Below, in pieces: positions 6,098 to 62,400 of a stretch of 64,000 nucleotides of DNA. The DNA is from Lepisosteus oculatus. Lineage: Eukaryota > Chordata > Actinopteri > Semionotiformes > Lepisosteidae. The DNA is taken from NCBI RefSeq assembly GCF_040954835.1, contig NC_090712.1:1373284-1437283 (forward strand), read 5' to 3'. The translations under genes were made by a program, and so were the position numbers. Each line of letters starts with the position of its first letter. Position 1 is the first letter of the stretch. The notes below the pieces were generated by a model. That model was not told the DNA's origin. It did no database searches and was given only the letters and a program-made list of their open reading frames with translations.

Positions 6098-6135
<38 letters not shown>

Positions 6136-9344: not shown

Positions 9345-9353
9345 TATATTAAG
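9345..9353 (+). promoter_or_regulatory. TATA box of the lysozyme-like gene
   Basis: TATATTAAG lies about 60 bp upstream of the ATG at 9407. This suits a TATA-driven, tissue-restricted secreted-protein gene with a 5' UTR of some 30 bp. The start site itself is inferred. Confidence 0.5.
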
Positions 9354-9406
9354 GGTCACAAGTGACAGCGCTGTATCAATCCACAGGAAGACAACAAGGC
9401 TGCAAG

Positions 9407-16695: not shown

Positions 16696-19430
16696 TCAGT
16701 AGGCGGGGAGGCTCGCTCGCTGGCTCATGCAGAAGTCGGGGCTCAGGCTCTCGATGGTGCAGTCGGACGTGTCCATCGTGCACAGGCTGCAGTCGCAGCT
16801 CAGGGCCACCGGGTAGGTCACGTGGGGGTCCACGCCAGGGGCGCAGCCCGGCAGCCGGATGGTCTCGTACTTGACGTCCCGGTACGTGCAGACGTGCTGG
16901 TAGATCATGGCCAGGGGGCTCTTGTAGACGGGCTCCTGGAAGGCAGGCAGGTGAGGATCATGAGTGTACCCACGCGAATCGGGACAGGCCTTTATAAACC
17001 CGCCGTGTGGTTGTGATGTTGATTTTTTTTTCTGGTGGAAAAACAAGTTTCACACTGGTTGCAGACAACAGCCAGGTCTCCTGTAGTTAGAAAGGGTCAT
17101 AATATTGAGGTTTTCGAAAATTCCGTATTCAGATCCCATGCCAAGTTTGAGTTAGAGATGCAGTTTTGGAACCACGCTTTGATAACACTGCATATGTGTG
17201 GCCTTTAGATTTAAGCTTTACCCCGAGCATCTCAGAATTGCAATGACACAATTCTTCCAATGAATGCTGACCTCGCCTGCAGTCATGACATGGATGTTGC
17301 CTTTTGTTCTGCCAGGTATGAATTTCTACTGCTGTTCATGCTGCTTATGTGACTGAATTCATAGCTACAATGAGACCTCACTCACAGTTAGCTTCTTGCA
17401 TGCAGACTGAACCTTCTTACACTTCCCTAAGACAAGACCGAGCTTCTGCTCTTACCCTGCCTTTGAAAAGCTGCTGAGTTTGCTGTTGTTGTCAAAGGTA
17501 TTGAAATCAGACCTTGATGGAAGAAGCCTTGGTTTTACTTCTGACCTTGTGTCATTTGAAGATCACAAGGTTGTATTTTTTCCACCTGCACAACATTGTT
17601 CTGATGTTGAAATATTGATAAAGTCTCTTATTTTGTCACGATTTAACTGCTGCAATGCCTTACTAACTGAGGTATCCTCACAGGTATGAAACGGGCTTCA
17701 GTATTTCCAGAATACCGAAGCTCATGCTAACTGGAAGTACTCTGCATCAGCAGATTACTCCCATCCTCTGTAAATTGCACTGGCTGCCTGTAAAATTCAG
17801 AAGCTCTCCTGCTCGTGCATAAGACACCGGTGTCCTGTCTTCTAACATGGGTGCAAAGCAGGCTCCACACAGTGGGTGGTAGAGCCTTCTCTTGTGAAGC
17901 TCCATGTTATAAGTATAAATAAGGAAATTTCCTTGTACATCTTTTTACTGTAGGCTTTGAGGTTCGTATAATTTACTTTTCATGTTGATTTCACTGGGTC
18001 AATTTGCTGTACCTTTTTCTCTTTTACTTTTGCTATGTGTACTATGTGTGGCGGGTGTTTTGAAAAGCGCTCATTAATAAAATTATTATTATTTTATTGT
18101 AAAGTTTACTTTTCAACATGTTAAAAACAAGCTTAAGTTTCCTGTGTTTGACGATGCAAGCATCATCAAAATGAATAATAGACAATCTCTCATGTTCCAT
18201 TTACTGTCACAGTGCTGTTTTCACTCAAGAATCTATTCAAATTGTTCCGGATGACAGACTCGTTCAGCTGCCTGCGCTGTGACAGCGTACTTCCTCACAT
18301 CGTTTGTGCAGATCAGTCTGTCACCCCTCGTGCCTGAGAACCCCCCTTTCTGTCGGTTTTTGTCATGTATGAGCCTTCTGTCAATTAATAATAACAAGAT
18401 TGCTAATAAATTCCATGCAATTGTGTTTTGTATCCCAGAGTGCTTCACATGTAAGAGGGAACCCATTTCATCCCCCGCTGTAGTGCAGCCCCACCTGGGT
18501 GACACCAGGTGAGGTCTGAACAGCAGATCAGGGGGAGGAGTGAGGCATTGTGTTGTACTATATTCTAGAGAAATGTAACCAGAACCATGCCTTGGGATCT
18601 GCAATGACCGAGTAATCAGGACGTTGGTTTGCCCTAATCCAAAACACATCTATGATCATCACACTGGTGGCATTGGTTGGAAAATCCAGTCTAGGGGGAA
18701 GAACACCCGGATACTGGAGCCTTAATTAAAATCTTGATGTGCTTAATTAGTCCTTGTTAATGAATGTTCAGTTGCTTGAACAGTTATTAGCAATACATTT
18801 CATATATATAAAATGTATGGGGCGGAGTGGTGGCACTGTGGCGCCTGTGGCTGGAAGGTTGCCGGTTCGAATCCTGCTGCCGGCAGAGGAATCCTACTCC
18901 GTTGGGCCCCTGAGCAAGGCCCTTCACCCCAACTGCTCCAGGGGCGCCGTATAAATGGCTGACCCTGCACTCTGACCCCCAGCTTCTCTCCCTGTCTGTG
19001 TCTCTCAAGGAGAGCAAGATGGGGTATGGGAAAAGACAAATTCCTAATACAAGAAATTGTATATGGCCGATAAAGTGATCTTCTCTTATCGTATATCAAG
19101 CATCTCTCTGGGAATTTAGAATAGCTACAAGAATAGGTCAAAGTCAGGAACTGTCATGCGGGAGCTTCCTGAGATGGAGTCCAGCAGGGACTGGGGTCAC
19201 GTCAGGCGAACGCGCCTGTGGCACTCAGGAAGGCGAGACGCTACCTTGGTGAGGCAGTGGCCGCTGCAGATGGAGGTCCGAAACACCAGGCACTGCGGGC
19301 AGCCGTCTTTCTCCACGGAGACGGTCTCGTTCACGGGCTCGCAGGAGCGGAGGGGGGAGGTGGCGGCTGGGCTCGGGAGGCCACACAGGCCCAGCCCCAG
19401 GAGCGCGATGCATGCTGGGAAAGCCCTCAT
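16696..19430 (-). CDS. lhb: Luteinizing hormone beta subunit
   Basis: LH beta pairs with the common glycoprotein alpha chain and is secreted by pituitary gonadotropes to drive gonadal steroid production, ovulation and sperm release. Two coding exons (minus strand) join in phase 0: 19430-19245 (62 codons, MRAFPAC...CLTK) and 16935-16696 (79 codons plus TGA), giving 141 aa. There is a hydrophobic signal peptide, then 12 cysteines at 30, 44, 47, 55, 59, 78, 93, 109, 111, 114, 121 and 131, the cystine-knot and seat-belt pattern. One N-glycosylation site is at Asn34 (NET). Diagnostic stretches are [18 protein letters not shown] and [14 protein letters not shown], and the tail DFCMSQ is of fish LH-beta type rather than FSH-beta. 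The intron after 'HCLTK' is at the standard gonadotropin-beta position. The start was chosen at the Met opening the signal peptide. Confidence 0.96.
17480..18095 (+). mobile_element. Degenerate L2-like LINE fragment in the lhb intron
   Basis: A decayed reverse-transcriptase tail (text like [20 protein letters not shown]) is followed by the 'ggctccacacagtgggtggt' block and a 3' end near 18060 (gaaaagcgctcattaataaa then ATT repeats). It is heavily mutated. Confidence 0.5.
18440..18640 (-). mobile_element. Old SINE-like remnant
   Basis: The words gtgcagccccacctgggtga and, further right, text resembling the middle of the 5S-derived SINE body suggest an ancient minus-strand copy. Similarity is weak, so the limits and family are uncertain. 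Confidence 0.3.
18819..19090 (+). mobile_element. tRNA-derived SINE, copy 1
   Basis: The head carries an RNA polymerase III B-box-like motif (ggttcgaatcc) in a tRNA-like context. It is followed by a conserved body (gttgggcccctgagcaaggc, gtataaatggctgaccctgc) and a 3' end reading ggccgataaagtgatctt. Three further copies occur in this window. It lies in the lhb intron. Confidence 0.75.
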
Positions 19431-20522
19431 CCTTCTGGGAGCAGCAGAGGGTTCGTTCGATTCTTGCGGTTTCATACGAGTGGAACTTTCTTTCCACCTG
19501 AACTGAAACACAATCATTGAATATTTCCATAAGATTGTCATTTCGCTTCTCCGAAAGATTGGATGTTTCAGCAGTCCTTAAATCAGAATTTCTAAGCCCA
19601 ACACCATTTTTATTCAAGGAATCTGGTCTTCCCTTAGAATAATAAATACAGGTTGCATGGATTTACCTGGTCACCAAACTTTGTAAAATAATTAAACTTT
19701 ATTACCTCTACATATATTAAAGTCCTGTAATCATAAATTGCACATTTTACTCTATTATTGTTTAAATGACCTGTATGTTTCAGTGCACACCCTGCTGCAG
19801 GAGAATTCAGAACTGTTCTGAGGGGTGACTGCACATCTTCTTTCAGGCTCGGTGCTCCCTATTATGTTTAGCGTCACAATGTAAATGAGTGTTATGTTAG
19901 CAATTGCAGACTAATCCTGAGGTACTTGTGTTAACACTGTTACAAGCATCAGCATTACTGAAGTTCAGATGGGACATTGCTCAGAATGCCTAATGGGATA
20001 TTTTTTTTTTAATCGTTGCTTTCATTTCACTTATTAATAGTGCATACTGTTATAATCAGATGGCAATTGGCAGTTAAACAGCCACAATGTATTGAGGCAT
20101 CATATTCCTTATGCAAGTGATCCAAAATGAATATCTGACAACTTTGATATTGTTGTCAAGGTAAATTAACAAAACTTATAAAATGATTCTGACAACATAT
20201 AGTGAGAGGGGATTAAAATATGCCCCAGACCGTTACTGCAGTAGCTCTCAACAGGGCTTGGTTTTCTGTTTAATAAAGTACAAAGAGCTTCCTTGTTTAG
20301 ACACTTTTAGTTTTATTCTAATCCTTTGACCACCTGATGACTCATTAATACAGCTGAGTGCTGTTCTTACAAATGTTCTTGCAAATGTCTTAATTACAGG
20401 TAATTACACCTGGAATATTAACCTTAAAAATATACAAGTACAAAGAGCTGTCCATCATGCAGCTCAGCTGGATGTTCCTCTGGGTTGCACTGCGATGGAC
20501 TTTAATAAAAGTTCTGACCTAC

Positions 20523-22705: not shown

Positions 22706-22759
<54 letters not shown>

Positions 22760-23057: not shown

Positions 23058-23098
<41 letters not shown>
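23058..23098. repeat. (AAC)n microsatellite
   Basis: About 13 uninterrupted AAC/ACA units lie some 200 bp upstream of the cox20 start codon. Confidence 0.9.
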
Positions 23099-39600: not shown

Positions 39601-42406
39601 TTACTAAAATATTTACCTTTTAATTCTTCTTTATTAAATAAAATGCATTCGTTCCATGTTTCAAATCTGAACTATTTAAAAGGCTTTGGTAATCCCGCAA
39701 TTAAACAACAGCTGATAAAAATACCACCCCAGCCAAAACCTTCCTGTCAAGTGTAAGTCTTTGTCATTCATCAAAATGTGGCAATAAAGAATGGGACCTG
39801 CTGTCTCTGTTGTGTTAGGTTTTGCACTTGCTTCTGCAAAACCTAAATACAGGAGGAGTTATTCCTAATATAGTTCTTATTCTGGCTTTTGCTCTCCATC
39901 ACAATACTATAGGAATGCATGATGTAATTTCCCCCTCCACTTTTAAAAATGTTTCTACAGATCTACTCTGTAGCATAAACCTTCGAGGTGTTTTAGTTTG
40001 GGGAAACTTAGATGGCAAAGCCTCACAATCTAATCTCCCAAAGCTAACTTTCTTGAACTGAAATATCAGCACTGGGCGCTAGACAGTGTTGTAGCGGGCA
40101 CAGTGCGCGGATGACATACAAGAGGAAAGTGCTTCATAGGCCATGTGAGCAGAAGAGGATTTTAAAACATGCACCGCAAAGCTGTGTAGTTAGTCACAGG
40201 AAAGAGGAAGCTGTCCAGCCTGCTGCGATAAACTCTGGGCTGTCTCCTGATCCTGACATTTGCCACTGGCTGATGGGGATGAGGATGAGTCGGGACAAGG
40301 AGAAAGTCTTTAATACTTATGAACATGGTTTTAATCCGAAAGCACTGGGGAGCGTGAATCTGTAGTTTTATCAAAGCTTTCAATTTATATGGGACAAAGC
40401 AGAGGGTGATCTGATAGAAAGTGGGTTAAGATCATTTGAAGGGGATCTTGTCTGTACAAACAGCTGCACGAACATGCTGAGAAGGAGTGACAGTCTTCTC
40501 GCACTGTGACGCTCTGCATGGAGGAAAACAGACCCATGCTGCATCTGGAACGCTGGTGGATTAGCACAAACGCGCACAATAACAGGAACAAACACGCGCA
40601 AGGCAGGACAGAAAGTGGACAAGCCCCACACTCTCACGGTCGATGTGTTAACTGAACACTTTCCTGTACCATGACTGCCCACAGGGGGCTGAATAAGAAA
40701 CTCTAAAATGACTGTGATTATACATGTTCCTCTTACAATAGCAAGTAGTGCACAGTGTCACTCACATGCTGCTGATGATCTCTCCTGACGTTGTCAAATA
40801 TATACCACAAAATATCGGTGCAGTTTTCAATAATTTAGACAATAAAGGGTTGAATAAGCACAAATTAAAACACTGGTATTTATCAGGTATCATTCATTTT
40901 GAAAACAAATGCTCCACCTGGACAAATTTTTGGCGTTTTCACTACTTTTTGCCACCGTGCTCCTGAATGAGATGAAAGCTTTCTCAAACCGTCACACAGT
41001 CACAGAGTGAGCTGCAGTTCGACTCCCTTTGTGTTCAGTGTGACATGTTGCCAAGAAATGGTCTTTGCATGCAGGTCTCCGATGTCTTGAGCATTATGTT
41101 CAGGCATAACACAATACGTGCTTTGCCTGTAAGAGATTACGAGTCCAGTTTAAAATATTAATCTTTTAAAATGTTTTCAGAGAAAAATATATTAGGTTAG
41201 GGTTACCAAGCAAATCTGGCACTGCCACATAAATAAACTGTGCAAATCTGTTAGAAAAAACAATATTAATCTCTCTTATTATTAAGTAGAAAATTCAGTT
41301 GCTTTTCAAAACACTGAACATGGACCCAATTTAAAACCAGTAACAGTTTGATATTTCTTAGAAGAATGTATGGGGTCTGTTTGTTGGCTCATGAAATTCT
41401 GCCTAATCAGCTTTTTCCCAGATGGAACAGCAATTGGACAGAAATACAGGAGCACCTATACTGATCCCCAGGAGTCCTTTGGATTTTACCAGGCTACTCT
41501 TGACTCCTTTTATATATTTAATACTATTAATATGAATCATAATAGAATAGTTACTTTTGCTATACCCTGCCCCTTTGGAAGAGCCAGTTGTGCGTTTTTG
41601 CCATTTGGGCTCACCTGTGAACTGTGTGATCACACACGGGGAGAGTGGGGGCCCACAGCAGAGGACCGGCGCTGATTGGAATAGAGGCGCGTCCTTCACT
41701 GACAGCACTGCATGCCTGCAGGTCCTCGGGAGGCCACAGGGGGCGCTGTGTCACTGAGAGCTGACCCCACCCTACCCTTGGCAGCACACAGTTCCGCTGC
41801 TGCTTGGGGGATCCTGGTCCCAGTCGGTGGGTGACACGACCTAGACCTGAATCTGTGTTCATGGGTCAATCTATGCTTAGCCAAACACCATTAGGGCATT
41901 GGGCATGTGTGAGTTGCAGTCAATCAAATTTGCTAACTGCAACCACCTGCTCGGGTTTTCAGGTACAAGGGCTTGGTGTCATGTGCACAACTAATCCAAA
42001 CTATAGATGAAATGGGAACTTCTCATAAATCTGCACAATATGGTGTGGGAGTCTAAGGGAATTCATTACAGTTTCAAGAAAATATTAAGGTATCCCCTGT
42101 CTTTGGCAGGAACACACTTTACTCCATGCAAATGAACATGCCATCCGAGGACCGCAGGGTTCCTTAAAAAATAAACCTCTGATCGAATCAAGCATTGGCA
42201 CGGCTGTTGGCTGTTTTAGATCCTCTTTAATGGCGTATGATCTCTTGGATTTAGAATCACGGACGTTCCTCCAAAATGGGGAATGACTTTCCAAAGGCCT
42301 ACGAAGTCACAAGCTCACACCTGAGTCAAAGCTACACACCCAAACCGCTTTCCAAACCCTGGCGAGGTGGAGCTCCAGGTCTCCGCCCTTCAAAGCAGCT
42401 CAGGTC
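36680..42406 (-). other. arfgef3: Candidate very long 3' UTR of arfgef3
   Basis: These 5.7 kb downstream of the arfgef3 stop contain no recognisable SINE or LINE, unlike the rest of the window, and no other gene. On the minus strand an AATAAA lies near 36683, and a Pumilio-like TGTAAATA word lies near 38778. The human ARFGEF3 mRNA has a 3' UTR of several kilobases, so a single long UTR is plausible, but this is inference. Confidence 0.4.
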
Positions 42407-42598
42407 TCATGGAATGATCTCGTAGACCCTGCCCAGGCGCCCCAGCCATTCGCGGACGGCCTGGCGGACTCGGGCGTCAGTCACGTGGCAGGTGAGCTGG
42501 CTGACGCACGGGAAGACCGCAGGCTGCAGGGCCGTGAACGTGGGGTCCGGCAGGAGCTGGATCTGGTTGAGAATGGTCAACACCATGTTGGTCCACGC
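42407..42598 (-). CDS. arfgef3: arfgef3 terminal coding exon
   Basis: 63 codons plus [23 protein letters not shown] through [16 protein letters not shown], the conserved C-terminus of ARFGEF3. Phase 0 acceptor (ctgccctag). Confidence 0.95.
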   Translation of the reverse strand, partial: AWTNMVLTILNQIQLLPDPTFTALQPAVFPCVSQLTCHVTDARVRQAVREWLGRLGRVYEIIP

Positions 42599-45500
42599 CT
42601 AGGGCAGAAACACAGGTAAACTCCAGCTGCCAACCGCGCCACCCTGGACAGACTCGGAAACTCTCCTGCACGTTAAAGGACATTTCAGGAAGAGGCTGGA
42701 TCATGTTTAGACCACACAGCGATGCAGCCGCTGCTGTTCAAAGTGCATAATCAGTGCAGGAAGTTTTGATGACATCTTTATGGTGCAATGAGAAGATTCA
42801 AGGTAATGTTCAATCTTAAATATCTTTCCCGAAAAAAATAACAGTGGTAAATCCTGTGCCTACCCATCCATCTATCCTATACAGAGTATTGAAATAAATT
42901 TAGAAATTTACAGTATATTAATATTCTGTTTCGCCAGCACTGACCCCTCCACGCCTCCACACTCATGTGCACACAGGGTACCTGTATCTGCACCTCGGAG
43001 TCGCGCAGGGAGATGTTGTGAGAGCCGGCGGTGGACCCTGAGCGGGGACGCTTGTCCTGCCTCAGAACCTCGGGCCCGGCGCTGAAGGAGTGCCTCATTG
43101 GACCCTGGTCCACCAGCTGCTGGGGCCTCTGTGGGATGGGGGAGTCGGGGCCCCGCAGCGTGACGGGCTCCCCCTTCTTGTCGCATTTGGACTCCTTCAC
43201 GAAGGTGGTCAGGTTGTGCTGCTGCTTCCTCTTCTTGTACTCGATCATCAGCTTGGTGATGGTCTTATCGGTGGCGATGGTGTACAGCTTGTTTCCGGCG
43301 CTCTCCCACCACTCCCTCTTCTTGCTGGGGTCCCTCCGGTCCCCCTTCAAGGGCGGCAGGCAGCCGGCACTCTGCCCGATGCTCGGGGTCTCGTCGGAGG
43401 GCGTCTCGGCCGCATGGCACCGGAACCCGTCTTCTGACGGGGTGCCCTTGCCCGAGACGCCCCCCGTGGAAGGCGTCGAGGTCTCAGAAGGGAAGAGTGG
43501 GAGGAAGAAGAGGGGGTCCCCCTTGAGCACAGGGGGCTCGTCGCTGTTGCACTCCAGATCCAAGTGCATCTGGATGTAGTTGTTGCAGAGGTCCATGCAG
43601 AGCTTGTGCAGACGCTTGACCAGCCAGGCCCAGTCCACGCTGCTCACAGGCTGGCTGCTAAGGGAGGGGATCTTGGCCCTCCACTGCCTCTTCTCCTTGC
43701 CCCGCGGGGGGCTGACCTGGGCTGTCTCCTCAAATATGTCTTCATCCTCCGAGGAGCACTGCTGGGAGGAGTCCGAGCTACCCTCCTCTTCCTCGTAGAG
43801 GATCTTCTTCACCTGCTCTGCGGTGATGTTCTCCTGATTGGTCAAAATGGCACAGACCAAGGCCTGGAAGTAGATGTTGAAGCTCATGGCAGACTGCCGG
43901 TACAGGTTGGCTGCACCACAGACACCAGACACTTTCATCAGCAGGTACTTCAGCCCCGGCCTGGTGTCGAAGTCGCGCGCAGTCCGGTAGGAGTCCAGCA
44001 GCAGGTCAAAGATGATGGCCAAGTTCTGCATGGAAATGTAACGCAGGAAGCCAGCTGGCTTGGGCTCTGACACGGGGGTGGCCTTCTCCTGATTGTCCGG
44101 CTGGGCAGAGCCCTTCACAGACTCCTCCAGCAGGATGTCATAGAGATTCTGAAGCAGCACTTGATGGGACAACAGGCTCACCACGATGGTGCGGAATGGG
44201 ATCCTGCACAGAAAATGGTTTTTCTTTTTCAAATAAAGACAATTTGTGATTTCACTTCATATCACAGCGTGATTCTGTGTATCAAGTCAACCAGTGGTGA
44301 CTAACAACAGCTAATCTAAGCAAGCAAACATCAATATCCAACATGTTCCACAGTCGACCTTTCAAAGAATAAAATCTTATATTTGTTTTTCTTCACTACG
44401 CCAAAGTGTGCTTCTTGAATATCATTCTGTTAAAGTAGTTTTAAAAAGTAAAACACTCTTTGTATGGAAACATCAGCACTGACTCAGGAGATATTAGCCA
44501 TCATGTAAAAGAAGCAGAAATAAGATCTAGATGAAGGATTAGGATTCTCGGATTATCCTTGACCACGGATTTGACAGCGTTGAATGTATTTTGATGCACA
44601 TGTGAGCATATTTGTCTGACATGAACAAAGATGCAAGAGATGTTTCTTAAGCTAAGACATGATGAAGCAGAGATTATACATACTGGCTCCCCACAGCACC
44701 TACGCAAAGCACAGTGAGTGACCTCAGTGTTGGTGTAAATGGTGTTGAAATGCAACCCTGGATGGAAATTAAAAACCATGCTGTTGCGTTTGAATCTTTT
44801 TTCCATCTTCCTAACATTTCCAGGTTAGCAGAAATTGCTGCATAGATCGTTATTTCATCATGATCAGGCTACTATAACATCTTGGTTACTGAGGTATCGT
44901 TACTAAACAGACTTGAGAACAGTCTCTCCCTTAATCTGGGATCTGCTAATCAAACCTTCACACCTGGCCTAACACAAGGCTCCACACAGTGGGCAGCAAC
45001 AAGACCTTTGGGGTTTTCCTCTATTTACTTGTTTTGGTTTATTTCTAAGAATACATGCTTCCCCAAGTACAATATTCAAAACGTGCTGATTACAGTCATT
45101 TCTTTTTCTTTTTTTGGGTCTGTATGGTATCAGGCCTCACACTTCCAGATGAGTCACACACAACAGCCTGGTTTTCTGTGTAGGGAGAGATTTCAAACTC
45201 ATGCTCGATCAAAATGGCTAAAAATCAAATTTTTGTGGTCCCAGCTGATCCGTATTTTTAATCCTGGTAAAGATATCTACAAGATGGCCTGGAAAAACAA
45301 ATTCAAATCAGAGACCTTACCCCACTTTCCTGTTGCATGTTCCGCATGATTGGAAAAAAACAACAACACAACAAATGGTGAAATATTGCGTCGTGAAGGA
45401 TAAACAACTGTCATCCTATACAACTAACCTTGAGCTACAGGTGTCAAGACAGAGTGATGTAAAAATCCAGTATTTTAAAACACGGATTAAAGGCGATGTG

Positions 45501-48500
45501 CTCAGTATCTTTATTAAACGCTCCTATGACCTCTTGCATGATGGCAGGAGGTGGCAGCAGTTTCTCCCGCAGCGAAATGATTAACTAGTTTCTCACAGCA
45601 AAACTGGAACAGATTCTCCTCTGGGAATCATAAAAAGGAAATGAAAATCTCACAAGATGGAGATAGCCCAGCCTTGAACCACTGAGAGAGCACTTCGCAG
45701 AAGAGAACACGCGGCCCCCCGCAGTGCCCTGCAGCCCCCCCACCTGCGTGTGTGCGCTCACCTCTTCTGCGTGTGCCCGTTGGACTGCTGATCTGGGGGC
45801 AGCTCGATGATGAGCACGCAGGACTGGGCGTGCTCAAATCCCTCCTTGTTGTTGGGAGTTTTCGGGGAACACTGTGTATCCAGCATGAAGACCTACTCAG
45901 CGAGATAAGGAGAAAGCATGGTGAAAACACAGACCCCACACATGCAGTGCACATGCAGGGAAATGATATCGTCACTTAATTAACGCCCGTATCTATCTAT
46001 TTATGTTCTCTGAAATATTAACTGTTACTGTGCAACTTGAAACTCTGGCCAATAACCCATGACAACCTCTCCAGACACCCTCACTGTATCTACAAATCTA
46101 CAACAAAACTGAAAGTTGCAGAATATTCATTACTCCTGTGACCGCACACGAGGAGAAGGGGGGAGATTGTAGAGCACAAGGTTGTTTCTGAAAGCAGAAA
46201 AGGAAACCGTGAGATATGTGCACCAATCTTCCATGACTGCAAACTGTGAACCTTGGTATATGGGAAGACAGACAAAATCAAATATGCAGGAACTGTCCAA
46301 AATGCCCAGACAAAATTCTGTGCTTAAGGAGATTCCCTCAAAGGGTCAGTTGTGTGTCTGAACACAGCCCTGGTGTCCACCTGCTGAGCCCTGGCCTGTA
46401 TCCTCCAGTACTGAGTGTCTGAACACAGCCCCGGTGTCTACCTGCTGAGCCCTGGCCTGTATCCTCCAGTACTGAGTGTCTGAACACAGCCCTGGTGTCT
46501 ACCTGCTGAGCCCTGGCCTGTATCCTCCAGTACTGAGTGTCTGAACACAGCCCCGGTGTCTACCTGCTGAGCCCTGGCCTGTATTCTCCAGTACTGAGTG
46601 TCTGAACACAGCCCCGGTGTCTACCTGCTGAGCCCTGGCCTGTATCCTCCAGTACTGAGTGTCTGAACACAGCCCCGGTGTCTACCTGCTGAGCCCTGGC
46701 CTGTATCCTCCAGTACTGAGTGTCTGAACACAGCCCCGGTGTCTACCTGCTGAGCCCTGGCCTGTATTCTCCAGTACTGGGTGTCTGAACACAGCCCCGG
46801 TGTCTACCTGCTGAGCCCTGGCCTGTATCCTCCAGTACTGAGTGTCTGAACACAGCCCTGGTGTCTACCTGCTGGGCCATGGCTCGTATTCTCCAGTACT
46901 GAGTGTCTGAACACAGCCCTGGTGTCTACCTGCTGGGCCATGGCTTGTATTCTCCAGTACTGAGTGTCTGAACACAGCCCCGGTGTCTACCTGCTGAGCC
47001 CTGGCCTGTATCCTCCAGTACTGAGTGTCTGAACACAGCCCCGGTGTCTACCTGCTGAGCCCTGGCCTGTATCCTCCAGTACTGAGTGTCTGAACACAGC
47101 CCCGGTGTCTACCTGCTGAGCCCTGGCCTGTATCCTCCAGTACTGAGTGTCTGAACACAGCCCCGGTGTCTACCTGCTGAGCCCTGGCCTGTATCCTCCA
47201 GTACTGAGTGTCTGAACACAGCCCTGGTGTCTACCTGCTGAGCCCTGGCCTGTATCCTCCACTACTGAGTGTCTGAACACAGCCCTGGTGTCTACCTGCT
47301 GAGCCCTGGCCTGTATCCTCCAGTACTGAGTGTCTGAACACAGCCCTGGTGTCTACCTGCTGAGCCATGGCTCGTATTCTCCAGTACTGGGTGTCTGAAC
47401 ACAGCCCCGGTGTCTACCTGCTGGGCCATGGCCTGTATCCTCCAGTACTGAGTGTCTGAACACAGCCCCGGTGTCTACCTGCTGAGCCATGGCCTGTATC
47501 CTCCAGTACTGAGTGTCTGAACACAGCCCCGGTGTCTACCTGCTGAGCCCTGGCCTGTATCCTCCAGTACTGAGTGTCTGAACACAGCCCCGGTGTCTAC
47601 CTGCTGGGCCATGGCCTGTATCCTCCAGTACTGAGTGTCTGAACACAGCCCCGGTGTCTACCTGCTGAGCCATGGCCTGTATCCTCCAGTACTGAGTGTC
47701 TGAACACAGCCCTGGTGTCTACCTGCTGAGCCATGGCTCGTATTCTCCAGTACTGAGTGTCTGAACACAGCCCCGGTGTCTACCTGCTGAGCCATGGCCT
47801 GTATCCTCCAGTACTGAGTGTCTGAACACAGCCCCGGTGTCTACCTGCTGAGCCCTGGCCTGTATCCTCCAGTACTGAGTGTCTGAACACAGCCCCGGTG
47901 TCTACCTGTTGAGCCCTGGCCTGTATTCTCCAGTACTGAGTGTCTGAACACAGCCCCGGTGTCTACCTGCTGAGCCCTGGCCTGTATTCTCCAGTACTGA
48001 GTGTCTGAACACAGCCCTGGTGTCTACCTGCTGAGCCCTGGCCTGTATCCTCCAGTACTGAGTGTCTGAACACAGCCCTGGTGTCTACCTGCTGAGCCAT
48101 GGCTCGTATTCTCCAGTACTGAGTGTCTGAACACAGCCCTGGTGTCTACCTGCTGAGCCCTGGCCTGTATCCTCCAGTACTGAGTGTCTGAACACAGCCC
48201 CGGTGTCTACCTGCTGGGCCATGGCTCGTATTCTCCAGTACTGAGTGTCTGAACACAGCCCTGGTGTCTACCTGCTGGGCCATGGCTCGTATTCTCCAGT
48301 ACTGAGTGTCTGAACAAAGCCCTGGTGTCTACCTGCTGAGCCATGGCTCGTATTCTCCAGTACTGAGTGTCTGAACACAGCCCTGGTGTCTACCTGCTGA
48401 GCCATGGCTCGTATTCTCCAGTACTGAGTGCCTGAACACAGCCCCGGTGTCTACCTGCTGAGCCCTGGCCTGTATCCTCCAGTACTGAGTGTCTGAACAC

Positions 48501-51500
48501 AGCCCCGGTGTCTACCTGCTGGGCCATGGCTCGTATTCTCCAGTACTGAGTGTCTGAACACAGCCCTGGTGTCTACCTGCTGAGCCCTGGCCTGTATCCT
48601 CCAGTACTGAGTGTCTGAACACAGCCCCGGTGTCTACCTGCTGAGCCATGGCTCGTATTCTCCAGTACTCGGCCTCTGCGGAGGCAGAGTGGGATGGAGC
48701 CGCCACCTTGACCTCGCAGGCGTCCCCTGTGAAGCTGTCTGAGCCGCTGAGGAAACAGGCCAGCAGGTTCTGCAAGACACAAGCGAGGAGGAGACGCTGA
48801 GACTGCGCTGCAGGTCAACCAGCACAGACTGCGACTGGGAACTCTACTTCTCTCCCAAGAGAATCTGTGTAACGGCTCTGCACAGTGATCATGTTCCCAA
48901 AGTAATGTCACCCTCTTGAAAAAGGTGAAATACCCTTTGTATTTCGCACTCACTTGCCCTTGTTGCCCCTCACTAGATTCATAGCCATGTACAAAAACTC
49001 AGTTTGTACCTTGAACTTTTACGATTAGCGTTCAGGTCCTATTGAAAACTGCCAGCAGTCCTGCTCGTGTATCTCCCTGTCCAGGAAGTAGTGTTCTTTT
49101 TCTTAATTTGTTCACATTTAGGAGATGGATATAAATCTGGTATGTTTATTAGAGCATCATATTGTTTTTATTCCGGATGGGCATTTTTTGTCCTGTTGCT
49201 AGAGAAACAGCTGCGGGATTAAGATTATAAAAGGATTAGTTTTCACTCACTTCCATTTACCTGGGTGGTGTAGAAAAATACAGGTGCACTTCAAGCAGCA
49301 CACGAAAAGTATAAGCATTCCCTGCATCTATATAACATTTTGCACCTCAGGGGATCTCAAAACGCTTAACATATAGAAGGCAGAGCATTTAGAATTTATT
49401 TCTCTGAAATAAGGAGAATGAGGGAGACCAGATCATAAAAACCTAGAGTTGAATTTAGCTGTTTCATGTTAAATGGCCAGTACTGAAGACCTGGGTTCAA
49501 TTCCTGGCTGAGACAGCTCCTGTGTAGTCTGCATGTTCTCTGGATCTGCTGGCTGTGCTAACTTGCATTTCTAAATGTTCCCTGTGTGCAAGCCCTGTGA
49601 TGGGTTAAGTACCCTGTCCAGGGTGTGGGACTCCTTTAAGCCCTATATCAGACCTGGGCAGTCCTACTCCTGCTGGCTGTCAAGGTCTCATCGAAGTACC
49701 AGCAATAGTGAAGCCGAAGCTGTTAAACTGATCCCATTAAGCCAATAATAAAAGTGTGCATCGTTAAGTGCCGAGCTGGAATGAAAACCTGCAGACACAT
49801 TGGTCCTCCAGGATTTTGGTTGCTCATCCCTGCCCTACGCCTCTGGATTAGACTCCGAGCTGCTGGTGTCCTAGCCAGGAATATGTGTTTTTTTGATAAG
49901 GGATAGACTCACAATCTCTTCAGCTTCCCCTCTATGGTTCAATATTTACATGTTTCCACTTGTGTCTAAATTACATTCTACGCTGATGACACTCAAATCT
50001 ATGTCCATACTAAAACTGACACTAAAGTGGCTGTCTCTAACTGCATCTTTGACATAAAAACATGGATGACTCACAATTTCCTTCATTTAAAGTGACAAGA
50101 CTTGCTTCTCACCACCCTCCATCAACTATGTAAAGCCAATGCAATAATCGTATCTGTGGATGATACTGCACTTGAGTTTCAATCTAAATTGAATAGCTTG
50201 CAGGTGATATTTGATCCAGGCTTGACGTTGGACCCCTCTGTGCAATATATTGTAAAAACATCATTCTTCCACCTCAGAAATATTGTCAGACTACATCCGA
50301 TGCTGTAGCTAACTGTCGCTGAAAAGCTGGACAATACTTTTGTTTTCTCTTGAATTTATTATTGTAATGCTCTACACTCTGGATATCTAAATCCACACTG
50401 AACAAACTACAGTATGAGCAGAATTCATCAGCCAGAATCCTGACCAGGTCTAGTGCAAATGATCACAATACTCCTGTCCGGGAGTCCTTACACTGGCTTC
50501 CTGTAAGGTTTTATGTCGACTTCAAAATCCTCATGCTCACCTATAAGGCTCTGTATGGCTTGGCACCACAGTTACTGTCTGAGCTACTATCGTCCTACTC
50601 CCCACATCACAACTTCTTATTCCAGTATGCCCCAAAGCTCTGGAATTCAATCCCTAAGGATATCAGAGAGTCACCTGCCCTGAGCTCTTCCAATTTAGAC
50701 TAAAAAAACCTCTTTAGAGGGGCTTTTACTTAACTGGTTCTGTGTCTGCACCTTTGCTTTTCTTCTGGATTCAAACCCTCATTTTCAACTGAGTAACTCT
50801 GTTACCTCCTCTCGGGAGCTATATAAAATTACAATGTATTATTAGTATTGAGGGAAACCCATGGGTATAACAGGACTCTTTACCTTGACGGGCTCCAGGG
50901 TAGCTGAAAAGGCATCTTGCAGTGCGCAGCAGGCCAGCCTCCACATCTCCTCGGTGAAGACCGGGCCAGCAGTCACCAGGACATACCTGCCACGACACCA
51001 CAGCTCACCTCTCACACGCACGGGCAGCACCACACACAGGCTTCAGGAAAGAGCTCTTACTACAACAGAAAAAGTCCCTTCCGCTCATTCTGAGCCCTCG
51101 TGACATGGCAGAAGAGGCACTTGGGGACTGAGCTTTCTTTTTACAGTATAGACTGTACCCGCTGAAGCAAGAGTGACAAAGCCTCTTTTCTGGGTACACT
51201 GGACAATAGCCTTGTTTAAATTTGCTCAAGTACCTAAAAAAAGCAGCACAGCCCTAAAGTGGAGAGACTGAAATGAACTGTCATAATGGCAGAGTGTCCT
51301 TCTGGAAGCTCTGCCCATGGTTCTCTTGAGTGGAGAAGCCCATGATGGCTCAGTTTGAGGACGAGCGGTGCTCACAGCACCTGGGTGCTGGTCCTGTGAA
51401 GAACTCTGCAAGGCCTGGAGGCAGTAAACTGCTGGTGAACCAGGACATACGCTCACCTGATGCAGGAGCAGCCCACTCTGGAGATGGTCTCTGCTGGCTC

Positions 51501-54500
51501 AGCCACACAGGCCACCAAGAGCTTGAAGAGGTCCTTCAGCATCAGATTGATCGTGCTTTCATAGCCGATATCTGCGGCGAAAGGAGAGGAGCAGCTCAGG
51601 CTAGGCATTGAAAGGCTAATTTCATAATTATTTCCAGTAAATTGGCATTGTGCTAATATTATTTACTCTAGATTCACACTGTTGTGCTTTCCTGCTTCAT
51701 CAATCTGTATCAAAACCTGCAGTTTTGAAAACTTCAGTTGTGTGCAACTCCTTAGGGCTTTGTTTCTCCTCCAGGTAGGTCAGGAACAAGCTACCCAGGC
51801 ATGCTGTCAAAGCCAAAAGCACTGTTTCTTTTAACAAACAGCTGGATAAGATTGTCAGATCAGTTAGCTACTAGCAATCAATCAGATGGGCAGAATAGTA
51901 ACCTTTGTAGTCTTTGGCATGCCGAGTAAGATACAGGGCACACCTGTCAAGAGGCACAATCCTGGGGAGAATATGGATCATATTACATCCTGGAGGAGCT
52001 CCTTACCAGAGTGGATGAAGCTGTGAATGTGCTCCACCACCAGCTCGCAGGACAAGCCAATAGCATGCTTGAAGTTGGAGGCAGCCACATCCCAGTAGGA
52101 ATGGTCGCCGTGGCTACGCTGCAGCCAGAGTGACATCACAGGTAGGAGCAGCTGGATAACTGAGAATATGGCAAACCCTGGTCCTGGAAACAGAACAGAA
52201 TAGACTTCCGTTCAGAAAACATCTGAAACAGCAAACAGGGCAAGGAAGGGAAAAAAGGCAGCCAGGAGTCGCTCAGCTCCATACTTACAGCTATGAATCA
52301 CTTGGCTGTTTTTTGTTAACCTATATGATACTGTAATTTTGGAAATCATGCATTGTGCTGTTAATTGCACATTGAATCCTGCACTTGATGGCTGCACTAT
52401 GCATTTAGCCAATGTAACTATGTACATGTAGCTTCGCGTACGTAATGTGCTGCATCTATAATTTTACAGCCAAGCCAAATGATCTAATTCAAATGAATAA
52501 TTCTACCTTAAAACTTAACACCTGAGGTAATAAAGAGTGAAAAAAGTTTTTAGCATGTTAAGTCTGAGTTTCTAGTTCAGTAAATACCGTGGCCTTGACG
52601 TCCTGGGCGTTCTGCCCTGATCCCGTGTGCGCGACACCTGCACTCTTGTGCGTCTCATTCTTGTACTCGTCCTCTCACGGATCGAGCTCTGCTGCTTAGC
52701 AACCCTCACGACAAGAACTTTGTAACCAGCTCGTTATACTATATACATGCTGGGAAGATCCACTGCCGTTTGAGCTCCACTTTGCTATCCCGCCAAGTGC
52801 TTGCTCCTACACAATAAACACTCCCGACGGAACCCGAGTCAATTTGCTGATTCTACAATATCCACATCACACTCTGCTTGGCTCGTGATCTCCGAAAGTC
52901 ATCCGCTGGCCAGAGACGCCCGCCCATTCCCGCAGGTCGCCGAACGCACGACGGGCCCAAGCCCGTTTCCCGACCGGGAAACGACGGGGCACGTCTTGAA
53001 AAGCGCCGCCCGCTGAGCCGCGCGGGAGGGCGGCCTGTCCGCTCCCTCGGCCGACACTCGCCTGGGGTCTTGGTCACCTCCCTGAGGAGCTCGAAGAGCA
53101 GCTCCAGGGTGGGCGGCTGGTGCTGGCGCGGGCAGTGGGACACCGTGGCCGTCAGCTGCTCCAGCAGGAGGATCCAGACCTGGATCAGCCCTGCAGAGCA
53201 AAGCAGGTTCTGTTCAACGTCCCCGTTTCGGGCTGATCGGGTGCTCAGGCGGGAATGAATTCAAAACCGTCCCGCTCTTTCTTGCTGAGACTTTTTCTGG
53301 CCCCACCAGAGCCCTGCAGGTGTTAAAATTGCCGAACGGGCAGCTGTGTGTTTCCACACCTGTTTCGTCATCGAACTCCGCGAGGATGGAGTCCATGCCG
53401 TCGTCGCTGCCGGCGCATCTCTCCTGCGCCCTCGTAGGGAGGCTGGCCAGCCGGGCGCCCAGGAACACCGGCTTAGAAGGCATCTTGTAGATCTTGGCCA
53501 GCAGCTGCAATATTTATTTTTAGTTTTTATTTTTTTCTGGGATTTATTGGGATGGTGAATATCCCTAAGAAATGTCATTCGTGTTTTGTGTTTTAAGGGA
53601 TGGGTTAGCTGTCCTGGCAGCTGCCTGGCACCCTGCTGATGCGCCCTGCTTGGCGTACTACTGCCTGGTCACACTGCAGGAGCAGGGATCGCAGATCTCG
53701 CAGGAGATCTCGGTGGAGGTCACAAAATACAACCCCCCCTTTCAGGTAGGGTCCACGGTGCACGGATTTCAGCTGGACAGCTCCCATGTCGAAAGATATT
53801 CATTACGTAGAGCAGAGGTTGAAATAAATCTGCTGGCAAAAAACAGGGTCAGATTTTCCTTGGCTCCGTTATTTTTTTATTTTGGATTTGGAAAATAGAG
53901 TTTAGCGCTGATGTGCAATATTTTATTGCCAGGCATTTGCCCTTACAGTTTGCATAGCGGATGCCACGAGGCTCACTGCAGCGAGACCTAGCCAGGTGAC
54001 CCCTCTCGCCTCCCACTGCCCCCGGTACCCGTCGGGGCGGTTTTCGTCAAAATAAGTGAGTGAGAGAGACCGGCCGTCTGGAAACAGAACTCATCCCGCC
54101 ACGCCCGGGCCTCCCTCCCCCAATCCCTGGGAGAGCGGTTCACCCTTGCTGCTGGGATCAGGATTACTGCCGTCCGAATCCGCCACAGTGCCGACGGTTC
54201 TGCCCGTCTCTCTCAGCTTTCCCCAGATGTGCCGGCGCACACAAATGAAAGGACCCTCTGCCCTTACCTGGGAGCACTTCCGTAAGTAATCCAGCGCCGG
54301 AAGGCACAGGTCGGTGGAGCTGTACCCTGAGGCCTGGACACAGTCTCCAATCTCCTTATAGTCCACTTCTCCTGGGAAAAGGGGGGGAACTGGGATTAAG
54401 TCAAGTGTCACGTCAGGTATGAAAATCTGCCTGAGCGAATTAGAGCCTGAAGCTATAAATCAGCATTCCTGACAACTGTCACAATTCTCTAACAGTACAC

Positions 54501-56421: not shown

Positions 56422-56459
<38 letters not shown>

Positions 56460-59400
56460 ATCCCCAAACGGGAAATAGTCTCGTCTTCCTCTGCCGCGCT
56501 CGGATCCTACCTGCCCACCTCCCTTTCGGACAGACAGTCCAGCCAGGCAGGTGTGCAGACGGGCGGGGGATTTACCTGGTCCTGCACGTCCTCGTCGCAC
56601 AGCTCCAGCTGCATGATGTGCTCAAAGGGCCGGAACAGGGCCTCGTTGAAGTGGAAGTGGGGCAGCTCGGCCCAGGTGGTCAGCACCTCCGTGAGCACGT
56701 CGTGGATGAAGGAGACTGCCTTCTGAGAGGCGTGCCTCTCCTTGTGGCACGCGGCCTGCAGTCCAATCACAGGACAGCGACGTGACGCAAACCGAACCCG
56801 GAACTGGAAGACCCGTTATTTCAGCAGTGTAAAGCCATGCCAATGGTGCTCTCAACCCAGGAAGAGCTAAGAACTCTAAGAACAGGGCATTATCACATGA
56901 ATGAAACGGGAAAATGTAAGGAACAGCTGGTGCTGATTTCCACACAGCGATACACTAACAGCACTTGCAGTTTTAGAGCATTTGTCATTTTCATAACAGA
57001 GGATGACTGTCGTTGCTCGGGGTAGCATCTCCTGAATACATATGGAGTGACTTAGACAGGCGTCAGCTTTTTTACAGTCTGAAATTGTCTGCTGGTTTCA
57101 TGGGGTGGTGTGGTGGATCTGCGCCTGTGGCTGGCAGGTTGCCGGTTCAAATCCTGCGGCAGGCAGAGGAATCCTACTTTGTTGGGCCCTTGAGCAAGGC
57201 CCTGAACCCCAACTGCTCCAGGGGTGCTGTATGAATGGCTGACCCTGCGCTCTGACCCCAAGCTTCTCTCTCCCTGTTTGTGTCTCTCACTCTTTTTGAA
57301 CAGTACTGCAATGCATTACAGACTTTATAAGCTGCACGTTTAGAGTAGATCGGCACAGGACTTAAATTCTGAAAAATGGAAGAAATTCTACATTGTAATG
57401 CTGATTTTTTTTTTTGCAAAGATCCTACCACTCAAGCAGTCTGAAATAGATCAAACTGTAGTGCAATGAGAGTTGTATCTGAGGGACAATCCTCTGGGGC
57501 AGAGTACTGTTGCCAGTCAGCTATCGTACCTCCACCAGGTGTGGCGCCACCACGCTCCAGGCCCTCATCATGTGCAGCAGGGGGCGCGTCTTGTTCCTGA
57601 CGATCCTCAGCATCGCCTCCCCCAGGCGGAACAGGTGCAGCGCGCTCCGGCGGTCCTGAGTGGACTTGGCCTCCCCTTGAGGGAGAGAGAGCAGCAGACA
57701 CAGGTGAGAGTCCTGCTCCTGGGTCTAAATGAGGCAGACAGGGATAAACAGACAGGGTGGGCAGAACACCCATTCTATCGCTAAATCCCCTCCAGGGAAA
57801 GAAGCACAAGGGTACAGTACCAGGCATGGCTAAGGAGTAGTCCCCTGTCTCTGTGGCCGATTTGAAGAGCTGCGACTGGGAGGCCTTTCTCAGCTGATGA
57901 AGAAACCCCACCAGAGCCACGAGGTTAAGCTTGTTTGCAGCATCTTCAAACAACCTAACAAACAAACACAAAGAGATCATCTGTCAGCATCTCCAGCAGG
58001 CAGGGACGGGAACGTTCCTTCAAGAAGTCTTGCGTCTGCATTTCAGTGTTGGGTGGGCAGAAAAATTCTGTGTCTTTGAACCTCATGTGGATTGGTTCTC
58101 TTATCCCACTACGTCTCCTTATTACATCCCACGAAACACCGGGCAGCGCGGTGGCTCTGTGGCTAAAGATCTGTGCCTGTAGCTGGAAGGCTTCCGGTTT
58201 GTATCCTACTCTGTTGGGCCCCTGAGCAAGGCCCTTAACCCCAACTTCTCCAGGGGTGCCGTATAAATGGCTGACCCTGCGATCTGACCCCAAGCTTCTC
58301 TCCCTGTCTGTGTGTCTCATGGAGAGCAAGCTGGGGTCTGCGAAAAAGACACATTCCTAATACAAGAAAATTATATATGGCCAATAAAGTGAGCTGATCT
58401 TATCTACAGTATAAGTGACTTTATGTTTCTGGCCAGGGCTGAAAGCACGCCAGACCGCAGCTCTGGAGGACCAGAGGTCCCCTCCTGCTCAGCTACAAAA
58501 TTATTACAAAAGGAAGCACAGTGCCCAGAGCCCAGGGCTCTGCGCTATAGAAGAAAGGGAGAGTCTCCAAATAGGTATTTATGCAGCTTTCACCTCGACA
58601 AACGAGCTACAAAATAAACCGAAGCACAAGGCAGCTTGAGAGAGGGCCATTAAACCCCTTCATATTCCAGTAAGTAGTTTAAAATATAAGCCTCAGCAAG
58701 GAGCATTATGAGCTCTGGGCTTAACAGAAATGGGCTCTGGCCTAGAATGCCCTGTGTCAATTGCTACCATACCTTACGGTAGATGTGCAGCCATTTATTT
58801 ACAATAGTCCAAACTGGAGTCGTGGTGAGAAATAATGTGCCTGTGCTACTGTTGCAGAAATATTATGCGTTTGCATTAACTTATCTAAAATCACCCCCTT
58901 TCTTCAGTATCTGTGTCGTGTCGGGCAGATGTCAGAGAGATTTCTTTTTGACAGCTGTGTGTGAAGCACAGGCATTCCATCCCAGAAAATGCACAAGCTA
59001 ATTTAACTCACTAACATAAATCATCCATTTAACATAAATCCAATTTTTCAGATATATATGAAGCTCATTCAGAAGAAATGGTACTGGGTTCCAGTGAAAG
59101 AAAATGCTTTGCTGCTACTGGATATTGAAGTCATGTGCCTATTAGCTTGCCCATCAACATGAGAGACTGAAACTGCAAATTCAAGTTACTGTGCTTGGGA
59201 AAAGCACACAAAATGAGATCATGTTCCAGTTTCTCGCTTTGTTTTTCCCGTGCCATCGCCTCTGCTTTCCCGTGTTGAGGAGAGAAGCCTGGGGGAAGCC
59301 AGTAGTGATGTCTGGGGAGCAGGCCTGGAGGCCCGGGGGATCACCTGTCTGCCTGGGTGGAGAGGGTGCACACGGCCTTGGCAGCGCTGGGCCCGCTCAG

Positions 59401-62400
59401 CAGGCTGCCCCCCCTCAGCTCGAACACCTTGCCCCTGCTGTTCTCCTTCAGCAGCTCCTGGATGGAGGGGGGCTGGATGACGGGGTGGCCCAGGGGGAGC
59501 TCCTGCTCGGGGCTGTGGTCTGCGCCGAGCTCCAGGCCCAGGTCCACGGCCTGCTGGGCCTGCGTGATGGCCAGGGGCGGCTGGCAGGCGCCGTCGCTGA
59601 AGTGGCTGTGCTCCAGGGAGCTCACGTACTCACACACTCTGGGGGAGAAACACAGGGCCTCGTCACGCACAACAACCGAGCCTGGCGTTCGTAGAGAGGA
59701 GCCCCCTGTCTGTCCCTCCAGAAGCATCACCTGAGTTCTTTCCGTCTTATCTGGAACCTGCTGCCCTGACTAGTACTGCACCACTGCAGAGGCGATGGCT
59801 GCAGCTTTCTGCCCCTGCTGGGGCTCGATCCCGGTCACTCCCGGGTTTAGAGCCACACAGCCCCCCTCCCGAGACAACAGCAAACTCTCCTGAGCCAAAA
59901 GACTGGCTCTTCCACCGCGGGAGAAACCCGCACCGCCCAGGGTTCAAGGGGGCGGTGTCACTTCGTTGCCCACCGTTCTGTCTACGCTGGACGTAATTGA
60001 TGCTTCAAAGTTTTGAGAATTTGGGTGAAACGCTGCGAAAGAATGTACCGTAACTGAATTGTAGATCTTGCGGATGAAGCAAACTGATTTTTTTAAGCGC
60101 TGTTTTACTGAAGGAAGCGGACCGGGCCGATTGGCGTTCGAGATCGGAGATCGAGATCACGTGTGGCAAAGTGGAGCCACGGGTCAGTACAGCCTCGCAA
60201 CCCAGCGGCAGTGCTGCTGCTGCACTGCTGCACCCTGAGGCCCGGCCCGGGACAGGGACTGGAGGTACCTGAAGACGTGAGGCCAGCAGTCCGGGTTGTG
60301 GCTGCCCATCTCCAGCCCCACGTTGAGGATGGCGTCCATGCAGAGGACGTGAGCCGTGTGCAGCCGGATCCCTGGCGCCCGTCCCATCTGCTCCAGCTTC
60401 TGCTCCACCTTCTGCTTCACTGTGTGGAGCCAGAGCCAGACACGGGCCAGTCAGCACTCTCCAGCCCTTCACGAGCACACGCACTGCACACCTGAGAAAC
60501 GCACTAGGGGGCTCGTTTCTCACTCACAGAGTCATGATTGGATCCATGGATAGAAAATCCGACTCTGGCCTGGGGTCATTACTCCTTGAGGGAATTTCTA
60601 AACAGACACCTGCTCTGTTGCACGGGACACCTCTGGAATAGCTGAAAGGTGGGATAACATCATCAGGAATAGCCACTGAGCCATAAGTGGGAGTGTAATG
60701 GTCACTCAAACACCCACTCATGGCAATAATATAGGGTGGCCATGGCTGAACCCGGACTATAAGCCCTCTGCAACACTGTTATAATTTGGGGCATTGTGGG
60801 AAATAATATCTCTTCCCAGTGTTCTCCAGAAGTGGCCGTTTTCATCACAGTTTAACTCATCTCAAACCTTCACCGGACTGCGCTGCGACTCCTTGCATCC
60901 CCACACATTTTATTGGACCCACCTACTCCTCAGCAACACTCCATCAAACAACATCTGGTCCTTGGTCTGTAATGTGCTGCATCCCCCCAGATCAAGACTA
61001 CATCCCAACACAATCAGGCTAACTGGGACGGAGTTGGGAAAAATAAATCGCGGTTCCCTTCATTGTCGCTTTGTCAGATTGCCTGCTCAGGTCATCCCGG
61101 GACAATACCTTGTGCTATTGTGTCTCCGGATTCGGGAACCTCCCGCTCCTCCTTCTCCTCCTGGACGCAGGAGGCGGCTGCCATCTGGGCCAGAGCGGAG
61201 GCACAGTTTGCAGCCACTCCTGTGGGCGGCAGAAGGAGGGAGGGTTACGTCAGAGATGGCTCGTGGACACGGGACCTCTCCAGCCAACACAGCCCACAGT
61301 GCAACACAACCGGAGAATCGCTTTGCACCCTCCTCTTCCAGCAGGTTTAAAGGGCAGAGCTGGGCCTGGTCAGTCTTGGGACGGGAGACCTCTAAGGAAA
61401 TCCAGGTTGCTGCTGCAAGTGTTGTCGGTGGACCAGTAGGGGGCGATCTTCCCTCTAAATCAGAATTTTCTTAGCCGCCATATCACCCTGCAACTCACAA
61501 CTGGCAGCCCACTGAAGCTCAGTGGGTGTGAGCCTGGTCAGTACCAGGATGGGAGACCTCCTGGGAAAAACTAAGGTTGCTGCCGGAAGAGATGTTAGTT
61601 GGGACAGCTCGCCATGTGGTCTATGTGGGTCCTAATGCCCCAGTATAGTGACGGGACACTATACTGTAAAAATTGCGCTGTCCTTCGGATGAGACATAGA
61701 ACCGAGGTCCTGACTTTAAAAATTAAAAATCCCAGGGCGTTTCTCGAAAAGAGTAGGGGTGTAACCCCGGCGTCCTGGCCAAATTTCCCATTGGCCCTTA
61801 CCAATCATGGCCTCCTAATAATCCCCATCTCTGTACTGGCTTCATTACTCTGCTCTCCTCCCCACTGAGAGCTGGTGTGTGGGGAGCGTTCTGGCGCACT
61901 ATGGCAGCCGTCGCATCATCCAGGTTGGGCTGCACACTGGTGGTGGAGGGGATCCCCATTACCTGTAAAGCACTTTGAGTGGAGTGTCCAGAAAAGCGCT
62001 ATATAAGGTGTAAGCAAGTATTAATTATTATTATTATTATTGATTTCCAAACCAGTGCCTCAGTGTGTGACCCCACCTTGCTGTAGAGAGTGCCACCCTT
62101 TGGATGAGATGTTGAACTGAGCTCCGAACTACTTGATCTCTGAAAAGTTTTCCGTTAATTCAAACGGTAAAGTAATCTCTCACTTCTGCACCTATTGTAC
62201 CACCCAGAACAAAATCTCAGTTAGTTTAACAGAACTGAAGACTGTCAGCTGCATCACAGTGCACAGTGTGTGGCTCTACAACTGTAAAACCCCCATGTGC
62301 TCAGTGTCTGTGTTCTACAGGTCCAGGAAAGGAGGGAGACGCAATTTAACAGCAAATGGTGAAGAGGAACTGCTCCACCTACTGGTTGTAATAAACTAGT

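Follow-up and report, generated by a model that had tools for sequence, protein, structure and literature searches.

How is the correct donor chosen when the same splice junction stands dozens of times over in one pre-mRNA? This question is raised by a stretch of 64,000 nucleotides (nt) from Lepisosteus oculatus (assembly GCF_040954835.1, contig NC_090712.1, positions 1,373,284 to 1,437,283; hereafter the window, numbered from its first letter), in which the end of a coding exon and the beginning of the following intron of a putative ARFGEF/BIG family gene form a minisatellite of 38 tandem copies. The copy at the exon end carries the donor that is expected to be used (donor 1), and the other 37 copies lie in the intron, where their donors could act as decoys.

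A minisatellite across a splice junction

A search of the window with Tandem Repeats Finder (TRF) returned a single array with a unit of 61 base pairs (bp), located at 46354-48669 (38.0 copies, 95% matches and 0% indels). When the minus strand was cut at every CAG/GT(A/G)GACAC, 38 units, each with its donor, were obtained, and all 37 spacings between them were exactly 61; this search itself demanded CAGGT, and the uniform spacing shows that no unit was missed. A 17-base junction probe, allowed up to three mismatches, found 38 matches in the window, every one of them in the array and on the minus strand, whereas 100 shuffles gave a mean of 0.21 matches and a maximum of 2. The repeat array is real as a sequence and is beyond chance. 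A previous sequence-only reading had described about 38 copies of a genuine exon/intron junction at 46353..48668, and this description stands in kind, copy number and place, its coordinates being off by one. The elements concerned are as follows:

46352..48669, minus strand: the array, 38 units of 61 bp, supported by TRF, direct unit cutting and the junction probe
within 46352..48669, minus strand: unit 1, made of the exon end and the real donor, and units 2-38, which are intronic
48638..48769, minus strand: coding exon of 132 nt, whose last 32 bases (48669-48638) lie in array unit 1; open in one frame, preceded by an AG acceptor and joined in frame to the next exon
48632..48640, minus strand: the authentic donor CAG/GTAGAC, with the exon end at 48638, located by direct sequence reading and unit cutting
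45893..48637, minus strand: the host intron of 2,745 nt, of which the array fills 48637-46352
46375..46383, minus strand: the last decoy donor, CAG/GTGGAC, at the distal edge of the array, located by unit cutting
45762..45892, minus strand: the next coding exon, ending in GAG/GTGAGC, with an open frame and an in-frame join

Read from the sequence, each unit takes 32 bases from the end of the exon and 27 from the intron, to which two filler bases (TC) are added, the latter matching neither flank. The unit length of 61 bp given earlier was correct, and the accompanying division into 30 exon and 31 intron bases was nearly so. The motif CAG/GT is retained in all 38 units. In addition, 36 of the 37 extra units repeat, at intervals of 61 bp, the exact 9-mer of the real donor, CAG/GTAGAC (37 of 38 when the real donor is counted); about 37 decoys of this sequence had been anticipated, and the single departure is the last one.

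Because the exon at 48769-48638 has one open frame, which continues in phase into the exon at 45892-45762, the donor at 48638/48637 is the expected one, as the sequence-only reading had proposed. When this exon was joined to the next exon and to the two following coding stretches, the frame stayed open until a stop in the last stretch. It should be noted that the exon ends were chosen by eye from open frames together with donor and acceptor motifs, which favours good motifs. As for the host gene, a C-terminal BIG-family domain was recognized above the cut-off in the frame of the largest exon (PF20252, BIG2_C; expect value (E) 9e-09, 36.1 bits, cut-off 27), and a sub-threshold HDS match was present in an upstream exon (PF09324; E 0.0015, 18.8 bits, cut-off 23.5). 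On account of these matches, the host gene is taken to be a member of the ARFGEF/BIG family. It is probably arfgef3 (BIG3), a name presumed from the earlier reading and from the human protein, with orthology to ARFGEF3, as against ARFGEF1/2, likewise presumed. Pfam gave no match in the frames 48512-48814 (the array-bearing exon), 59341-59769 and 60184-60450 of this gene, and none was obtained at E up to 1 when PDB was searched with the largest exon's frame. The host gene also seems to have a GC donor, CAG/GCGAGT, at the end of an upstream exon (53062).

In silico, use of any of the 37 alternative donors leads to a premature stop, and none of them keeps the frame open. Donor 2 would add 61 nt and shift the frame, the next exon supplying a stop 39 codons on. 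With donor 3, the 122 nt added would also shift the frame, and a stop would follow after 92 codons (nt 408), one exon beyond the next. For all of donors 4-38 (+183 onward), reading would end after 41 codons, at the TAG that the third added unit has at its start. Stops were recomputed with refined exon ends for +0, +61, +122, +183 and +2257 only, and those for +183 and above fall inside the added units and are independent of the exon-end choice. It had been expected that one or two added units would shift the frame, that a third would supply a TAG and that decoy use would truncate the protein, and our predictions agree with all of this; the accompanying suggestion that the choice of donor might not matter is not supported by them. 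Transcripts spliced at a decoy would be expected to undergo decay because, according to the predicted coordinates, all 37 stops lie more than 50 nt ahead of a later exon junction (the standard rule). If all donors were used equally, only about one in 38 transcripts would be correct, and since every decoy leads to a stop, a working gene would need a strong preference for donor 1.

Choice among near-identical donors

The surroundings of all 38 donors are near-identical (32 bases before and 29 after). We consider it probable that donor 1 is chosen by its position, through exon definition, and that such positional choice among near-identical units is the best explanation of the array as a whole; local sequence, strength and predicted structure fail to mark donor 1, and thus position remains as the discriminator. 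In principle, U1 would be able to bind any of the 38 donors in the pre-mRNA. Donor 1 would win as exon definition would pair the upstream acceptor with the nearest donor, giving an exon of ordinary length (132 nt), and it would also be the first to be transcribed. Use of a later donor would then be noise destined for nonsense-mediated decay. Of two competing donors, the intron-distal one is reportedly favoured by hnRNP A1 (PMC5585400), and this protein would help donor 1 because donor 1 is the intron-distal one here.

Several points weigh against positional choice of donor 1. First, SRSF1 reportedly favours the intron-proximal of two competing donors (PMC5585400), which is the opposite of what is needed here. 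Second, the authentic donor scores low on a donor-site matrix, where it ranks 14th of 15 host-gene donors. By U1 pairing energy it is mid-ranked (9th of 15), and nothing local distinguishes it. The two measures of donor strength disagree for this donor; the 15 donors scored leave out a sixteenth (the exon near 50.9 kb).

RNA structure was also tried as a discriminator and was rejected, as donor 1 is singled out neither by folds of the exon with 1-10 units nor by the local opening probabilities of all 38 donors. In most comparisons it was less open than the later donors. The exceptions, both less open than donor 1 at 0.38, were donor 3 of the three-unit fold, at 0.36, and donor 4 of the 527-nt fold, at 0.24. 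With base-pair spans of up to 150 nt, the 9-nt opening probability was 0.013 for donor 1 and ranged from 0.008 to 0.092 over the 38 donors. The three-unit fold was not unusually stable (z -1.33; 16 of 200 shuffles were as low).

Among the alternatives to positional choice, the one that survives best supposes that several of the first donors are truly used, and that the misspliced, decay-bound share of transcripts sets the protein level and varies with array length. A similar situation is offered by the human gene IFI6 (6-16, G1P3), whose repeat unit is much shorter and whose products are in frame, with viable isoforms. The minisatellite in this gene reportedly supplies multiple splice donor sites (Turri, Cuin and Porter 1995, NAR 23:1854). 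The two systems are alike in that a minisatellite supplies several donor sequences in one transcript; here too, the array spans the authentic exon/intron junction and a donor-like sequence is found in every unit. In human IFI6, two downstream repeat units act as additional donors, so that three mRNA species encoding different isoforms arise (PMC4526556), and the exons that donors 2, 3 and 4 would produce in the gar gene (193, 254 and 315 nt) are of ordinary sizes. However, unlike that of IFI6, the gar array consists of 38 copies of a 61-bp unit and a premature stop is predicted for every alternative donor, and therefore viable isoforms of the IFI6 kind were not found among the 37 outcomes computed. 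On balance, we regard actual use of several donors as unlikely.

Unit variants and less probable explanations

Variation was observed in 12 of the 61 unit columns, and the mean pairwise identity between units was 95.0%. The 38 units comprise 17 distinct sequences, which are interspersed; ten of them are singletons and the commonest occurs nine times. Two main forms could be distinguished at -22, -17, -16 and -11: an exon-like form with A, G, A and T, and a second form with G, A, G and G, with intermediates between them. Because the coding exon has the exon-like form, the second one is presumably derived. All four combinations were present in 9 of 15 pairs of six variable sites, which suggests that units exchange segments, such reassorted variants being expected from exchange; recurrent mutation could contribute. 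Units 2-38 became slightly less exon-like the farther they lay from the exon (Spearman -0.34, two-sided p 0.038, one-sided permutation 0.019; -0.32 and p 0.054 without the last unit), a gradient that is suggestive only. Adjacent identical units showed no excess (4 versus 3.2 expected).

A probable history of the array begins with the tandem duplication of a short piece of DNA that ran from the 3' end of the exon into the intron. The duplicate would then have been amplified and reshuffled to 38 copies via unequal exchange or gene conversion, while selection at the protein level would keep the coding end of the exon original and many intronic units would drift to the second form. The array would be close to neutral. 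By a simple count, the donor core (9 nt) contains one of the 12 variable columns as against 1.8 expected from an even spread, and thus appears to bear no sign of selection for or against the decoys, although the count is too small to exclude weak selection. As the exon end itself belongs to the array, conversion from intronic units could bring missense (-17, -16 and -11) or nonsense (-28) changes into the exon, effects that were read from the codons. Unit 24 (47206-47266) has a change of C to G at -28, and its conversion into the exon would turn TAC into TAG.

The conservation of the donors bears on another proposal, namely that the serial weak U1 sites raise U1 occupancy near a weak donor and help exon definition, or that they block premature polyadenylation. 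We hold this to be very unlikely: the low matrix rank of the authentic donor and the retention of the exact 9-mer in nearly all copies speak for it, but conservation of the donor core does not exceed that of the remaining unit columns, and the donor is average for its gene by pairing energy. It is likewise improbable that the array is an artefact of assembly and that the true array is far shorter or absent. Long tandem arrays are prone to copy-number error; however, the number and interspersion of distinct unit sequences described above argue against it, and the longest exact repeat at a multiple of 61 inside the 2.3-kb array is 212 nt, which speaks against a mistakenly duplicated block. Moreover, the 64-kb window is without N.

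A further proposal concerns the derived form of the unit, which contains GAGGATACAGGCCAG and could pair through it with the beginning of the same exon. The two elements are:

48749..48763, minus strand: exon bases 7-21 (CTGGCCTGTTTCCTC), complementary at 14 of 15 positions to derived-type units
48587..48601, minus strand: the nearest derived-type arm (GAGGATACAGGCCAG), in unit 2

An arm with the full score was found in 18 of the 37 intronic units (46352-48608), and one with a score of one less in five more. The ungapped complementarity score was reached by 1 of 600 unit shuffles and 2 of 600 exon-body shuffles, figures that overstate the significance, as the complementarity was noticed post hoc. 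Of the 81 ways of changing all four sites that separate the unit forms, the observed one alone reaches the arm score. In folds of 466 and 527 nt, including folds of the exon with six units, pairing between the exon arm and unit 2 was predicted at ~0.8-0.95 for most bases. On the other hand, the duplex energy of whole units against the first 100 exon bases gave no support. Energies as low were reached in 875 of 1000 shuffles for the derived unit and in 525 of 1000 for the exon-like unit, and 75 of the 81 substitution combinations were as low as the observed one. It should be noted that the duplex program permits long loops and that the ungapped score was substituted after its negative result, which represents a change of measure.

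If the start of the exon paired with the derived arm of some unit, the end of the exon would be looped and donor use might be steered. We give this very little credence. When folds of 2-10 units were compared, the real units left donor 1 less accessible than all-exon-like units did (an opening of 0.38 against 0.60 at six units), and donor 1 was mostly less open than later donors, as mentioned above. Furthermore, unit 29 (46961-46901) has A at -17 together with A at -16, the one substitution that CpG decay would be expected to make in the exon-like form, and this intermediate would fit a stepwise change between the two forms that began with such decay. The complementarity may be due to chance or may be a trace of templated mutation, and a role of the arms in splicing is a low-probability lead. 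An extended version, in which the exon would dock on one of at least 18 arms, and docking together with array length would tune decoy use and thereby decay, is just as hard to believe; if true, it would represent a tandem-repeat version of docking/selector splicing control, fed by a minisatellite that is possibly variable between individuals.

Finally, recursive or intra-array splicing, in which the AG of a unit would serve as acceptor and an identical junction would be regenerated, can be drawn formally, but the unit's two candidate acceptors are pyrimidine-poor (35% before CAG, from -23 to -4, and 45% for TTCAG). The former value compares with 80% at the acceptor of the exon itself and with 30-90% over 14 acceptors of the gene, a sample that omits some exons and has three rows (57.6, 56.7 and 50.98) placed one or two bases off. 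By this crude measure, low values were also obtained for two of the gene's predicted acceptors (30% at 53504 and 45% at 44203).

Precedents, neighbouring features and significance

As the case of IFI6 illustrates, the splice-donor minisatellite is a kind of element that is already known and has published precedent. Minisatellites at exon-intron boundaries of human segmentally duplicated genes alter the extent of exons or introns (PMC2812944). Those repeats resemble the present one in their location at such a boundary, whereas their units average 30 bp with four copies and occur in recent paralogs; here, the unit of 61 bp is present in 38 copies and a new intron was not found. In the Rogers model, introns are gained when AGGT segments are duplicated in tandem, with ATP2A1 and the 24-bp AGGT repeats of fission yeast as examples (PMC4974935). 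Similarly, each gar unit has CAG/GT, and two units together would formally provide a donor as well as an acceptor AG; unlike in that model, the units arise at an existing junction and not inside an exon. A literature search gave no title, among those listed, that points to the present array. As far as the sources consulted show, the unit size, the donor number and the lack of any frame-sparing alternative are new.

Other features were observed elsewhere in the window:

16696-17049 and 19197-19577, minus strand: two frames that match the cystine-knot domain (PF00007; E 3.9e-23 and 2.4e-10), which we take to resemble a gonadotropin beta subunit such as lhb
14613-16082, plus strand: an open frame of 489 amino acids in which PF00096 marks nine C2H2 zinc-finger stretches
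9353-10474, plus strand: possible exons of the lysozyme/alpha-lactalbumin family (PF00062, 19.5 bits, below the cut-off of 27), the other frame being without a match
6099-6135 (TAA), 22706-22759 (AAT), 23058-23098 (AAC) and 56422-56458 (ATT): four perfect trinucleotide arrays of 12-18 copies each

A tRNA scan of the window found no tRNAs, and an Rfam scan of 42000-52500 found no family at the gathering score.

The rules of donor choice seem to have been tested mostly with two or three duplicated donors in minigenes. With 38 donors in near-identical context, differences in usage would hardly stem from local sequence, and position, order of synthesis or distance to the acceptor would have to account for them instead. 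Since every wrong donor is predicted to end in a stop, the error rate of a positional rule should be readable directly from transcripts with decay blocked. The locus may thus offer a natural setting in which to test whether position decides among donors that are nearly identical.

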